From the NCBI GenBank assembly GCA_030041475.1, contig JASHNU010000079.1, forward strand, positions 112,685 through 176,684: a stretch of DNA of 64,000 nucleotides. The letters run 5' to 3'. Source of the DNA: Candidatus Sulfotelmatobacter sp. (GTDB lineage Bacteria; Acidobacteriota; Terriglobia; Terriglobales; Acidobacteriaceae). Positions 48,302 through 63,975 of the stretch are shown piece after piece. Each line of letters begins with the position of its first letter. Position 1 is the stretch's first letter. The notes under the pieces are model-generated. The model did no database searches. It saw only the letters and a list, made by a program, of their open reading frames with translations, and was not told where the DNA came from. The translations under genes and the position numbers were made by a program.

Positions 48302-48364
48302 GTAAGACGTGTCTCACTTATCTTACTTGAAGCCATATGGTAAGATACGGCCATGTCATCTTAC
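48302..48364 (+). promoter_or_regulatory. Predicted vapBC operator: two GTAAGAY-N11-ATCTTAC dyads
   Basis: GTAAGAC 48302-48308 / ATCTTAC 48320-48326; GTAAGAT 48340-48346 / ATCTTAC 48358-48364; the second dyad spans the ATG at 48353. Confidence 0.7.
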
Positions 48365-48613
48365 CGGACCGTAATCAGCTCCAAAGGCCAAGTCGTCATT
48401 CCCGCCGAGTTGCGCGACGAACTCGGCCTCGCCAGAGGCACGCGCGCCACTTGGACCAAGGAAAACGGCCGCCTCATATTGACTCCTATCAACGAACGGC
48501 TCCTTGACGAGATTCAGGGATGCCTGAAACCCCGTCCGGGCGAGCCTTCAGCATTCGAAGCTCATCTCGAGGAACGTGAACGCGAGCGTCGTCGCGAGCG
48601 AGAGCGCCGGTAA
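48353..48613 (+). CDS. AbrB/SpoVT-domain antitoxin (VapB-like)
   Basis: 86 aa; RTVISSKGQVVIPAELRDELGLARGTRATW. Confidence 0.9.
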   Translation: MSSYRTVISSKGQVVIPAELRDELGLARGTRATWTKENGRLILTPINERLLDEIQGCLKPRPGEPSAFEAHLEERERERRRERERR

Positions 48614-48622
48614 GCGCCTGTT

Positions 48623-49039
48623 ATGCGCCGCTACGTTCTCGATGCGAATGCTTTAATTGGTTTTTTCGAGGATCGGGAGACCGCATCCGCAAAAGTACGC
48701 CGGATGCTCAGTGAATCGCTCCGCACCGAATTGCCTTTGCTGATGTCGGCGGTGAACTGGGGCGAAGTTTTCTACATGGAGTGGCGCTACCATGGCGAAG
48801 CTAAAGCCCGCGCGATCGAATCCTACTTGCACCGCTTGCCCATCGCCGTTATCCCGGCTGACCTCGACCGCGCCACGCGTGCCGCTGCGCTCAAGCAGAA
48901 GCACAACCTCGGTTACGCCGATTCTTTCGCTGCCGAACTCGCAATCGCACGCAGGGCGACGCTGGTCACCGCCGATCCCGAGTTTTTAAAGCTGGGGAAG
49001 ATCCTGCCGGTGTGCCCGCTCCCGCGCCACGAGAAGTAG
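48623..49039 (+). CDS. PIN-domain toxin (VapC-like ribonuclease)
   Basis: 138 aa; RYVLDANALIGFFEDRETA, NLGYADSFAAELA, LVTADPEF. Confidence 0.9.
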   Translation: MRRYVLDANALIGFFEDRETASAKVRRMLSESLRTELPLLMSAVNWGEVFYMEWRYHGEAKARAIESYLHRLPIAVIPADLDRATRAAALKQKHNLGYADSFAAELAIARRATLVTADPEFLKLGKILPVCPLPRHEK

Positions 49040-53011: not shown

Positions 53012-53041
53012 TTAACCCCCGTTAACCCCGCATCGTATAAT
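53012..53041 (+). promoter_or_regulatory. Predicted promoter/operator of the DtxR/MntR-type gene
   Basis: TTAACCCCCGTTAA (53012-53025) + 10 nt + TATAAT (53036-53041); the GTG start at 53048 implies a near-leaderless transcript. Confidence 0.65.
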
Positions 53042-53047
53042 TCCCCC

Positions 53048-53716
53048 GTGATCACTGTCTCCAAGGAAGACTACCTCAAGTCCATTCTTGAAGCCGAAAG
53101 CGAAGGCGAAACCGTGATCTCCGCCCGGCTCGCCGACTTGCTGAAAGTCTCACCACCTGCCGTCACGATGGCCCTGCGACGTCTGAAGAAAGACGGCCTG
53201 GTTCGCGTCGTGGGAGGCGGCGAGATTCGCCTGACCGCCGCCGGCCGCAAGATTGCCCGCAAGCTGACCCTGCGCCATCACCTCATCGAGCGCATGCTGT
53301 CCGAGCTCTTCGGCATGGAATGGTGGAAAGTTCACGACGAGGCCGAGCGCCTCGAACACGCCGTCTCGCCCGACTTCGAAGCCAAACTGCTGGCCAAACT
53401 CGGCTCGGGAGGAGCCTGCCCGCACGGCAACCTCAGCGAACTCGAAGGTCCCGCCAGCCGCCGCCGCCGCGGCCTCGTGCTGCTCTCTGAAGCAGAGCCC
53501 GACCAGCTTTACACCGTGAGCGGCATCTATGAACGCGATCGCCGTCTCCTCGAATTCCTCGAACACCGCGGCATCCGCCCCGGCGCGCGCCTCCGCCTGC
53601 TCGAGCGCAATTACGACCAGACGCTCACTCTCTCCACGCCCTCGGGAAAAGTGTCTCTCGGCCCCGCCGCCTCGCAGCGTGTGTGGCTCACTCCGGCAAT
53701 TCGCGCCAAAAAGTAA
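53048..53716 (+). CDS. DtxR/MntR-family metal-dependent transcriptional regulator with C-terminal FeoA/SH3-like domain
   Basis: 222 aa; SKEDYLKSILEAESEGETVISARLADLLKVSPPAVTMALRRLKKDGLV; HHLIERMLSELFGMEWWKVHDEAERLEHAVS. Confidence 0.93.
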   Translation: MITVSKEDYLKSILEAESEGETVISARLADLLKVSPPAVTMALRRLKKDGLVRVVGGGEIRLTAAGRKIARKLTLRHHLIERMLSELFGMEWWKVHDEAERLEHAVSPDFEAKLLAKLGSGGACPHGNLSELEGPASRRRRGLVLLSEAEPDQLYTVSGIYERDRRLLEFLEHRGIRPGARLRLLERNYDQTLTLSTPSGKVSLGPAASQRVWLTPAIRAKK

Positions 53717-53852: not shown

Positions 53853-53882
53853 TTAACTATGGTTTATCCCATCGTGTATACT
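53853..53882 (+). promoter_or_regulatory. Predicted promoter/operator of the NRAMP-like gene
   Basis: TTAACTATGGTTTA (53853-53866) + 10 nt + TATACT (53877-53882). Confidence 0.6.
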
Positions 53883-53937: not shown

Positions 53938-55359
53938 ATGAGGGAGTCAAGAGCAGCTGTGGCCTCGGAGGGAAAAATCGTTTCCAGCGCGCCCGGCGTC
54001 GCCGGCATCGTTTCCAGCAGCGTTGTCATCACCCACGAAGACATTGACCGTGCGCACGACCGCGAGCGCGTCTGGCAAACCCGCGCCCGTCGCGGCGTCT
54101 GGTCCCGCGCGCGCCTGCTCTGGCTCCTGGTCGGCCCCGGCATCCTGGTCATGCTCGGTGAAAACGACGGCCCCAGCATGCTCTCCTACGCCGCCACCGG
54201 AGCGCGTTTCGGCGTCGGCTTCTTCCTCCCGTTTGTGGTGCTCACCTTCCTCATGGCCTGCGTAGTTCAGGAAATGACGGTCCGCCTTGGCGCCGCCACT
54301 CATCGCGGCCACGCCGAACTCATCTTCGAGCGTTTCGGCCCGTTCTGGGGATGGTTCTCCATGGCCGACCTCATGCTCGGCAACTTCCTCACCCTGGTCA
54401 CCGAGTTCATTGCCATTCGTGCCGGCCTTGGCTATTTCGGCATTCGCCCATCGATCGCAGTTCTCGGCGCGTGGCTCATCCTTTTCGGCGCCCTGATGGC
54501 CCACCGCTACTGGACCTGGGAGCGCGTTATCCTGACCGCTGCCATGGGCAATCTCATCTTTGTGCCAGTGGCGTTGTTGAGCCGGCCTCGCTGGGCCGAA
54601 ATCGGCACCTCACTCGTCACCTGGCGGCCGCTCCCGGGTGGCCTCACGCAGGGAACCGTGCTCATCCTGCTCGCCGATATCGGCGCCACCGTTACGCCCT
54701 GGATGTTGTTCTTTCAGCAGAGCGCCATTGCCGACAAGGGACTCACCACCCGCGACATCCGCTTCGGCCGCGTCGACACCGTGCTGGGTGGGGCCTTGGC
54801 GGCACTCGCCGCGCTTGCTACCATCGTCGCTACCGCGCCGCTTTTCGCCCATGGCATGTCCGCAGACAACTTCGAAGGCGCCGCTTTCGCTCAGGCCTTG
54901 CAGCCGTTCGTCGGCCGCTGGGGCGCATCTCTGTTCGCGCTCGGAATGTTTGAAGCCGGTATGGTCGCCGCCGTCACCATCTCCACTTCGTCGGCCTACG
55001 CCTTCGGAGAGGTCGCCAACCGTCCACACAGCCTGAATCTTCCCTTCACCCAGGGCAAATCCTTTTATCTCGTCCTGCTCATCGAAGCCGCCGCCGCTGC
55101 CGCACTCGTGCTCATTCCCGGCATTCCCCTCGTCTACATCGTTCTCGTCGTCAATGTGATCGCCGTGCTCGCCATGCCGCCCGCACTGCTTTTTCTTTAC
55201 ATGCTGGTCAACGATCGCGAGATCATGGGCGATCTCGTCAGCCCGCTGTGGGCCAACATCCTCGCCCTCGGCGTGGTCGTCGTCTTGATCGCGGCCGGCG
55301 TGTTGTTCGGCGTCAGCGTTGTCGCTCCGCACGCACTGTCGGTTTTTGGAGGCCACTAG
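53938..55359 (+). CDS. NRAMP-related divalent metal transporter with divergent metal-site motifs
   Basis: 473 aa polytopic; LLVGPGILVMLGENDGPSMLSYAATGARFGVGFFLPF; ADIGATVTPWMLFFQQSAIADKG. Confidence 0.88.
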   Translation: MRESRAAVASEGKIVSSAPGVAGIVSSSVVITHEDIDRAHDRERVWQTRARRGVWSRARLLWLLVGPGILVMLGENDGPSMLSYAATGARFGVGFFLPFVVLTFLMACVVQEMTVRLGAATHRGHAELIFERFGPFWGWFSMADLMLGNFLTLVTEFIAIRAGLGYFGIRPSIAVLGAWLILFGALMAHRYWTWERVILTAAMGNLIFVPVALLSRPRWAEIGTSLVTWRPLPGGLTQGTVLILLADIGATVTPWMLFFQQSAIADKGLTTRDIRFGRVDTVLGGALAALAALATIVATAPLFAHGMSADNFEGAAFAQALQPFVGRWGASLFALGMFEAGMVAAVTISTSSAYAFGEVANRPHSLNLPFTQGKSFYLVLLIEAAAAAALVLIPGIPLVYIVLVVNVIAVLAMPPALLFLYMLVNDREIMGDLVSPLWANILALGVVVVLIAAGVLFGVSVVAPHALSVFGGH

Positions 55360-56558: not shown

Positions 56559-56639
56559 AGCCGCGCAGCGGCGAAACATGAAAGCCCGGCACGGCAGTGC
56601 CGGGTGGGAGCGAGCAAGCGAATGAGTCCCGTCAGGGAC
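56559..56639. repeat. 81-bp triple-hairpin dispersed element, copy 1
   Basis: agCCGCgcaGCGGcg..tgaaagCCCGGCACggcaGTGCCGGGt...gaGTCCCgtcaGGGAC. Confidence 0.8.
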
Positions 56640-60272: not shown

Positions 60273-61802
60273 CTAGAACTCCACGTGCAGCCGGAACGTC
60301 GGCACCACCACCGGGCCGCGGTCGCGGTTGTATCCAGGATTGTTGATGTGCTGCACGCCCGGTGCCACATAAATCCCGCGCCATAGGTGCGCCGTGTAAT
60401 AGGTCTCGAGAATATTTTCGCGCCCGTAGTTCAGGCCGCCATCGCCCAGCAGAAATCCGATTCCGCCATCGGCAAGATAATTCTGGTGATCCTTCTTGAT
60501 GCCGTTGGTCACAAACGCCACGCCAGCTCGGTCCTGCTTGCGATGCCACCACGCTCCGGCCGCGCCCACGCCGGTCGCGAAAGTCAGATCATCTTCCGTG
60601 TAGGCAAACGATTCCGTCTTGCCGTTGTCCCATCCGAATCGCCCGAACGCCGTCAGATAGTGCGTGAGATTCTGCTCCATATTCACGCCGAATCCGTACT
60701 TGTGCGTCATGCGCCACGGATGCTCGTCAATGTTGGGCGTCGTGCCCTCCTCGGCGGCCTCGATGATCTGCTCACGGTACACGCCCATGTTTGCCGTGTT
60801 GATGTACGCCAACAGGCGCACCACGCCGGCTTTTTTCGGGATGAACCCGTGCCGCAGTTCATATTCCAGATTTTCCCCACGTGCCTGCCACGGCCTCCAA
60901 ACCAGGTCGATTCCGTTGGGCAGGATCGGCATCAGGCCCAGCGCAAACCGTAGCCCCCAGTTGCGGTCCTCGAAGTCCGCCATCGCGCCCACGGTGTAGC
61001 CACGGGTGTCAGCCGCGTAATCCCACGCGCCGTTGTTGTCGGTCGTCCAGTTGATGAACTGCAGGTGCGTGTCGGTGCCGACCGAATTAACATCGAAGAA
61101 ATCCGGCAGGCTGAACTTGCCGAAACGGACCTCCAGCCGGCGCCGCGGCAACTCTTCGAACAGCGACCAGTAATTGCGTTGGTTTTCGATCTTGTCCTTG
61201 CTCAGCGCAATTACCTCGTGCAATTCGCCACGCCCCAGATACGGCGCTTTGCTGAGCAACGGGTTGCGCACAATGTCCAGATCCGTATTACCGGCCAGGC
61301 CGAATCCCTGGCTCAGAGCCGCTCCGCCGGCTTCTTCCACATCCACCAGAAGCTCGAACGAATTGTTGAGTCGCACGCCGGTGTACATCGTCAGCACACG
61401 GGAGGTCGCTTTTTCGTAATTCGGGCTCAGGCTGTGTGGCCCGCTGTAAAGCGCGGGGTAGTCAGCGTGCGTTTGAAAAATGAAATTTGCCTGGCCCGAG
61501 AACCAAAAGCGCGAGTCCTTGAGGTGAGGCAGCATCGCCTGTGTGTCGTCGGGCGGCGGCGGATCGGCCAGCGCCAAAGTGCTCGAGTCGGGGGAATTCT
61601 GCAGTGCCGGGACTGTTGCCGGCGGGGTCTCCGTTTGCTGCGCAAATCCAGGAGTCGCAAACGCGGAAACGGCGACAATCAGGACGGCTAGGGCCGCGGC
61701 CAGCGCCGGCAGCCGCCGATTCCGGCCGTGAACGCCATGCCCGCGCCGCAGGGTGCCCACGTAAGCCCCGTCGACGATATTGAAAATGAATTTCAATTTC
61801 AT
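60273..61802 (-). CDS. OprB-like (carbohydrate-selective porin family) outer-membrane protein
   Basis: MKLKFIFNIVDGAYVGTLRRG...; beta-barrel repeats; ENILETYYTAHLWRGIYVAPGVQHINNPGYNRDRGPVVVPTFRLHVEF terminal Phe strand; internal start chosen in the 61871 ORF. Confidence 0.85.
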   Translation of the reverse strand: MKLKFIFNIVDGAYVGTLRRGHGVHGRNRRLPALAAALAVLIVAVSAFATPGFAQQTETPPATVPALQNSPDSSTLALADPPPPDDTQAMLPHLKDSRFWFSGQANFIFQTHADYPALYSGPHSLSPNYEKATSRVLTMYTGVRLNNSFELLVDVEEAGGAALSQGFGLAGNTDLDIVRNPLLSKAPYLGRGELHEVIALSKDKIENQRNYWSLFEELPRRRLEVRFGKFSLPDFFDVNSVGTDTHLQFINWTTDNNGAWDYAADTRGYTVGAMADFEDRNWGLRFALGLMPILPNGIDLVWRPWQARGENLEYELRHGFIPKKAGVVRLLAYINTANMGVYREQIIEAAEEGTTPNIDEHPWRMTHKYGFGVNMEQNLTHYLTAFGRFGWDNGKTESFAYTEDDLTFATGVGAAGAWWHRKQDRAGVAFVTNGIKKDHQNYLADGGIGFLLGDGGLNYGRENILETYYTAHLWRGIYVAPGVQHINNPGYNRDRGPVVVPTFRLHVEF

Positions 61803-61926
61803 GTCCCTGCGGTACGCCTGCAGCACAGGCGCTCTGCACCCCGCATCACTCCCGCATGTGATCCCCGTCACGCTCTAATACATCCCCGGCAGGCTGTCGC
61901 ACTCAAATTCCGCGTGATTTAGCTAT

Positions 61927-61956
61927 AGCATACTTTACACTATTAACTATAGTTAA
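61927..61956 (-). promoter_or_regulatory. Predicted promoter/operator of the OprB-like gene
   Basis: Minus strand: TTAACTATAGTTAA (perfect 14-bp palindrome, 61943-61956) + 10 nt + TATGCT (61932-61927). Confidence 0.65.
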
Positions 61957-62113: not shown

Positions 62114-62130
62114 ATACCCCCCTAGGGTAT
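62114..62130 (+). promoter_or_regulatory. Predicted CsoR/RcnR/FrmR-family operator
   Basis: ATACCCCCCTAGGGTAT, the C-tract/dyad operator type of this family, 32 nt before the repressor start. Confidence 0.75.
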
Positions 62131-62161: not shown

Positions 62162-62452
62162 GTGCACAACCCGAAATCGCCGCAAGTCTCCAAAGAAAAA
62201 CAGAAGCTGCTCTCCCGCATCAAGCGTCTCGGTGGTCAGATCACCGCGGTCGAGCGCGCCGTCGCCGAAGGTGACGAATGCGCCGACATTCTCATGCTGC
62301 TCGCTGCCATCCGCGGCGGCGTCAACAGCCTCATGGCCGAAATTCTCGAGGACCACATCCGCCTGCACATCACTCATCCCCACCGCGCACCAGACTCGCC
62401 CGAAGAACTCACCGAGGACTTGATCTCGCTCGTCCGCGCCTACTTGAAATGA
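62162..62452 (+). CDS. CsoR/RcnR/FrmR-family metal-sensing repressor (DUF156)
   Basis: 96 aa, GTG start; KQKLLSRIKRLGGQITAVERAVAEGDECADILMLLAAIRGGVNSLMAEILEDHIRLHI; candidate Cys-His-x3-His ligands. Confidence 0.93.
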   Translation: MHNPKSPQVSKEKQKLLSRIKRLGGQITAVERAVAEGDECADILMLLAAIRGGVNSLMAEILEDHIRLHITHPHRAPDSPEELTEDLISLVRAYLK

Positions 62453-63894: not shown

Positions 63895-63975
63895 AGCCGC
63901 GAAGCGGCGAGATGTGAAAGCCCGGCACGGCAGTGCCGGGTCGATGTCGTAAGAACACATAAGTCCCGTAGGGAC
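63895..63975. repeat. 81-bp triple-hairpin dispersed element, copy 2
   Basis: agCCGCgaaGCGGcg..tgaaagCCCGGCACggcaGTGCCGGGt...aaGTCCCgtaGGGAC, same length and order as 56559-56639. Confidence 0.8.

Follow-up and report, generated by a model that had tools for sequence, protein, structure and literature searches.

The OprB-family porin encoded in the window, the 64,000-nucleotide stretch of DNA that we analysed, very probably belongs to the regulon of MntR, a DtxR-family metal regulator encoded on the same stretch. Its promoter shares a DNA switch with the genes for this manganese sensor and for a nearby inner-membrane importer of the NRAMP family, and the porin is therefore probably a point of manganese entry at the outer membrane. 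We consider it likely that the porin has a real role in the uptake of manganese, or of manganese together with iron. The computed basis for this assignment consists of a shared operator and promoter geometry, conservation, dependence on MntR, a site at the canonical mntH gene, manganese-type ligands in the regulator and the OprB fold of the porin. The genes and DNA sites are listed in Table 1.

Table 1 Genes, promoters and candidate regulatory sites in the window.
Feature	Position	Strand	Basis or remark
mntR operator TTAACCCCCGTTAA	53012-53025	+	Over its own -35; TTAACC-18-TATAAT promoter
MntR, DtxR-family regulator with FeoA domain	53048-53716	+	Pfam PF01325, PF02742 and FeoA
NRAMP-gene operator TTAACTATGGTTTA	53853-53866	+	Over the -35 of a TTAACT-18-TATACT promoter
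NRAMP promoter -10, TATACT	53877-53882	+	
NRAMP second half-site, GCTAA	53886-53890	+	
NRAMP-family transporter, non-canonical metal site (ENDGPSM / ATVTPW)	53938-55359	+	Pfam Nramp, 3e-56
OprB-family porin, 532-aa ORF	60273-61871	-	Pfam OprB PF04966
Porin second half-site, GCTAA	61919-61923	-	At +33, where transcription is predicted to start
Porin promoter, TTAACT-18 bp-TATGCT	-35 61956-61951; -10 61932-61927	-	Sequence
MntR-type operator TTAACTATAGTTAA, perfect palindrome	61943-61956	-	Over the porin -35; palindrome observed in the sequence
ATACCCCCCTAGGGTAT, likely operator of the FrmR/RcnR-like repressor	62114-62130	.	About 150 bp from the porin promoter
Gene for a FrmR/RcnR-like repressor (CsoR superfamily), transcribed divergently from the porin gene	62162-62452	+	Pfam PF02583, 1.5e-20

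A perfect palindrome in the porin promoter had been claimed in a preliminary description of this DNA, and we located it as TTAACTATAGTTAA; on the minus strand it opens with the six bases of the -35 element of the promoter. The palindrome covers the -35 element with the same 18-bp geometry at the NRAMP and mntR genes, so that the three promoters share one register, which agrees with the common geometry proposed earlier for the porin, MntR-type and NRAMP-like genes. The distance of 6-9 kb given at the same time has to be replaced: measured from the porin operator, the operator of mntR lies about 8.9 kb away and that of the NRAMP gene about 8.1 kb away. The position of the mntR operator over its own -35 element points to autoregulation. 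The -10 element of mntR, TATAAT, is only 6 bp ahead of the GTG start codon (53036-53048), as it is in the orthologues, and its mRNA may therefore be leaderless. A search for a manganese riboswitch near these genes found none, and the RNA matches were limited to two Acido-Lenti-1 elements that flank the region (56559-56604 and 63895-63940 (- strand)). Elsewhere in the window, an AbrB-like small ORF is followed by a PIN-domain-like ORF (48353-49039); read from the list of ORFs, these are likely to be a toxin-antitoxin pair.

We scanned up to 450 bp upstream of related genes for sites with no more than one mismatch to TTAACN4GTTAA. Such a site precedes 31 of the 34 porin orthologues in Candidatus Sulfotelmatobacter, 25 of them with an exact match and three orthologues lacking it, as compared with 1.2% in shuffled upstream DNA. 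The distance from operator to aligned gene start ranges from about 80 to 420 bp. Individual columns hold 1.1-2 bits of information inside the porin site and mostly less than 0.5 bits on either side. Porins from other genera of the same taxonomic family carry the site in 5 of 21 cases, and those beyond that family in 0 of 14. Within the genus, the site was found before every mntR gene (30/30; consensus TTAACC, then CTTAA or ATTAA) and before 29 of the 30 NRAMP genes, there in the form TTAACYATRGTTTA. In sister lineages across the class, the operator stands before canonical mntH in 29 of 32 genomes whose MntR is at least 50% identical to this one, in two of five with a more distant MntR and in two of 14 without MntR (Fisher p 9e-7 for 29/32 against 2/14, a value that overstates independence because the genomes are related and the counts not independent). 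Two genomes (G050 and G090) have a single operator between divergent mntR and mntH genes.

The promoters differ in a second element. A GYTAA half-site stands 33 bp after the operator start, where transcription is predicted to begin, in 27 of 29 NRAMP, 13 of 20 mntH and 16 of 36 porin promoters, and in most promoters of an Oar-like receptor described below, and is found in none of the 30 mntR promoters. It is plausible that this half-site marks an additional site, over the -10 element, to which a dimer would bind more weakly. Since the operator at mntH tracks the presence of this MntR, we take this protein to be the probable binder, and the pattern is hard to explain otherwise. The motif is conserved at the porin, NRAMP, mntR and mntH promoters. 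The earlier conditional proposal, that the porin would serve a metal route as its outer-membrane arm if the motif is the operator of the regulator, thus finds support as far as sequence can provide it. The genome encodes a second DtxR-family protein distinct from MntR (G000 C110:22259-22468, L325); this is an unlikely binder, because genomes with distant DtxR-family matches alone are usually without the operator.

The NRAMP-family transporter of the window appears to be a non-canonical protein that replaces MntH within the genus. It is without the DPGN (TM1) and MPH (TM6) motifs of canonical MntH; in the mntH of sister lineages the canonical DPGN/MPHN motifs are intact. Its metal site reads D-S-A-T, as against D-N-A-M in canonical proteins and D-G-T-A in NRMTs, in which Gly, Thr and Ala occupy the positions of N54, A232 and M235 of EcoDMT (PMC8806188). 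The site is thus not that of an NRMT, despite EleNRMT being the nearest solved structure (7qia, 1e-48; MntH, 4e-12). Of the two transporters, genomes of the genus encode one or the other: 29 have this NRAMP and nine have canonical MntH, apart from one fragmentary exception (Fisher p 1e-4). In several of them MntH occupies the slot of the NRAMP gene beside mntR. This mutual replacement speaks for a common role in manganese uptake but is not proof of it. The other NRAMP-family gene of the genome (C70), which has an NDAG motif, is without the operator and was used as a negative control within the genome.

The porin probably begins at the ATG at 61802, which gives a protein of 509 aa, because the MKLKFIFN start is conserved in relatives. 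Pfam PF04966 matches its C-terminal part (residues 244-532 of the ORF; E 1.5e-24, 87.5 bits against a cut-off of 22.9). No solved structure was detectable for it by sequence search, and we examined an AlphaFold model built from 37 homologues (mean pLDDT 78), for which the best match in the PDB was OprB of P. putida (4gey, E 1.5e-19), consistent with an OprB-like beta-barrel fold. In many members of the genus the porin, mntR and NRAMP genes share a contig, on a stretch of about 20 kb or less; co-occurrence and synteny of the porin with the NRAMP-like gene, suggested earlier as a check, gave a positive result within Candidatus Sulfotelmatobacter. In other families, relatives of the porin adjoin a different NRAMP-family gene with an NDAG motif (L129-L135), and some of these loci also carry a FrmR/RcnR-like gene.

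The fold and family of this protein, in whose sequence we identified no selectivity feature, would also suit a general channel for carbohydrates or small solutes whose expression merely happens to follow manganese, for example for the import of manganese-chelating sugar acids or as part of envelope remodelling under manganese stress. We judge this unlikely: the porin is the sole OprB-family protein of the genome, yet it is wired to manganese genes, and the adjacency to NRAMP-family genes extends to its relatives in other families.

The regulator was assigned from its domains, its metal ligands and its targets. It has the DNA-binding and dimerisation domains of the DtxR family, and the operator stands at its own promoter and at that of mntH. 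When aligned with structures from the PDB, Asp8 and a Glu (E100) take the positions of Met10 and Cys102 in DtxR/IdeR, and Asp and Glu hold these ligand positions in 30 of 30 orthologues. Asp and Glu in place of Met and Cys are the manganese-type arrangement in this family. The NCBIfam MntR equivalog NF047407 ranked first, with 113.9 bits and thus below its cut-off of 350; as this narrow cut-off was missed, we named the protein MntR by its ligands and targets.

A regulator and route dedicated to iron, or serving both iron and manganese, would be in keeping with the iron sensors found among DtxR-family regulators, with IdeR and DtxR being among the closest solved relatives by score, and with the ability of canonical MntH to carry Fe2+ too. 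In Acidithiobacillus, moreover, a member of the OprB family that is controlled by Fur, FeoP, has been connected with the uptake of Fe(II) (PMC2631029). The invariant Asp and Glu speak against iron, as does the first rank of the MntR model, albeit under its cut-off, and no iron-uptake gene is found at any of the three TTAACN4GTTAA sites of the genome. We consider a system for iron, alone or with manganese, unlikely.

The porin also has a neighbour that could control it, the divergently transcribed FrmR/RcnR-like repressor gene. The encoded protein matches the NCBIfam models for FrmR (6e-26) and RcnR (8e-16), both under cut-off, and its Cys and two His align with a FrmR-type structure. The repressor gene divergently adjoins the porin in relatives well beyond the genus, and palindromes of the ATACCCCCCTAGGGTAT kind (TACCC-N-GGGTA) recur beside relatives of the repressor gene, in a shared intergenic region that is sometimes less than 200 bp long. 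In Edaphobacter aggregans DSM 19364 and one further genome (G077), the porin-repressor pair is found beside mntR-mntH; the E. aggregans porin, though, has no MntR operator. From these observations, one could propose that the porin is mainly under this repressor and responds to another metal (Ni, Co or Cu) or to an aldehyde, with the MntR site being secondary. Within the genus, however, the palindrome is near the start of the repressor gene itself and about 150-700 bp away from the porin promoter, whose -35 element lies under the MntR operator, and several porin relatives are without such a neighbour. We therefore regard primary control by the FrmR/RcnR-like protein as improbable; dual control of the porin by MntR and this repressor is possible.

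The operator is rare. With up to three mismatches allowed, the window contains two matches, where 0.08 would be expected. In the 4.63-Mb genome, exact copies of the degenerate consensus TTAACYRYRGTTWA are confined to the promoters of the NRAMP gene and the porin. TTAACN4GTTAA is present three times genome-wide, twice before mntR and the porin; the third site (C52, L004) is upstream of a gene for an Rrf2-like regulator and was not counted as evidence. A search of 91 related genomes gave 35 exact TTAACYATRGTTAA sites, compared with two for a reversed control pattern. Of these, 21 precede the porin, three are at mntR or mntH and nine lie before, or probably before, a gene for an Oar-like receptor, one of them at a contig end; the remaining two (G004 C127 and G016 C147) fall within homologous genes, and we discounted them as chance matches. 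Short as the motif is, these genome-wide counts and the phylogenetic footprint, with its excess over shuffled DNA and its information falling sharply on both sides of the site, rule out a chance palindrome.

The Oar-like receptor combines a CarboxypepD_reg domain with an outer-membrane barrel domain. Wherever its upstream region could be read in genomes of the genus, the operator was present (9/9, no more than one mismatch). Several species have receptor loci with both the operator and the second half-site (L122, L123, L124, L126, L127, L045, L047 and L310-L317). No Oar-like receptor was found in the genome of the window at the threshold used. In some relatives, an outer-membrane receptor thus appears to join the regulon of the same operator.

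We propose that MntR loaded with Mn2+ would bind TTAACYATRGTTAA-type operators and block RNA polymerase at the mntR, NRAMP and porin promoters. When manganese is scarce, this repression would be lifted, the OprB-fold porin would let Mn2+, free or in small complexes, through the outer membrane, and the NRAMP protein would move it over the inner membrane. Binding and repression by MntR, manganese as the physiological signal and its passage through the porin are what we infer from the genomic pattern, and we hold it to be probable that manganese-bound MntR represses an import route that leads from the outer membrane to the cytoplasm, with the porin as its outer gate. Several observations count against a manganese route: the porin operator is confined to the genus and a few neighbours, the FrmR/RcnR-like gene is the more widespread companion of the porin, the OprB family takes its name from carbohydrates and the NRAMP protein is without the canonical site for manganese or iron. 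A fuller account is more tentative and, taken as a whole, somewhat less likely than not. It describes a complete MntR-controlled manganese route over both membranes, in which an OprB-family porin passes Mn2+, some species add an Oar-like receptor controlled through the same operator, a divergent D-S-A-T NRAMP has displaced canonical MntH, and the porin, formerly paired with the FrmR/RcnR-like gene, was recruited when it gained an MntR operator.

The crossing of the outer membrane by Mn2+ is known in few bacteria, and the present analysis offers a predicted function for a porin that is annotated as carbohydrate-selective. It also provides a searchable MntR operator for Acidobacteriota, and with it testable outer-membrane targets in a common soil phylum; the genus itself comprises uncultured Acidobacteriota from peat soil. 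Within this one genus, a regulator appears to have gained an outer-membrane gene, and the exchange of transporters suggests that an NRAMP protein with an unusual metal site is able to replace MntH. In the open-access literature that we searched, we found no paper that places a porin under MntR or links one to NRAMP.

Known systems share parts of this arrangement. OprB of P. putida, to which the porin model aligns with a TM-score of 0.74 on the target and 14% identity in the structural alignment, is a carbohydrate channel, and we know of no link between it and manganese. MnoP of Bradyrhizobium japonicum (blr0095) is regulated by the manganese-responsive repressor Mur. MnoP has been described as an outer-membrane Mn2+ channel that is needed at low manganese and mediates manganese import in proteoliposomes and in vivo (PMC9334652). 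Mur belongs to the Fur family, whereas the predicted regulator of the window porin is of the DtxR family, and the likeness between the two porins would be one of function, not of family. FeoP of Acidithiobacillus ferrooxidans is, like the window porin, an OprB-family protein under a metal repressor; it has a Fur box and is linked to the Fe(II) importer feoABC (PMC2631029, PMC2621215). There the partners are Fur, iron and FeoB, and here, in a different phylum, they would be MntR, manganese and NRAMP. In Anabaena sp. PCC 7120, the OprB-domain porins alr0834, alr4741 and all4499 have manganese phenotypes, and transcripts of alr0834 and alr4741 rise on manganese withdrawal (PMC9705863). These porins differ from ours in being cyanobacterial, with several paralogues and broad effects, and the passages that we consulted describe no MntR operator for them. 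Other MntR-mntH regulons have in common with the one proposed here a DtxR-family metal sensor, an NRAMP transporter and operators that overlap promoters; unlike them, this regulon would extend to an outer-membrane porin, and relatives would add an Oar-like receptor to the genes that share its operator.
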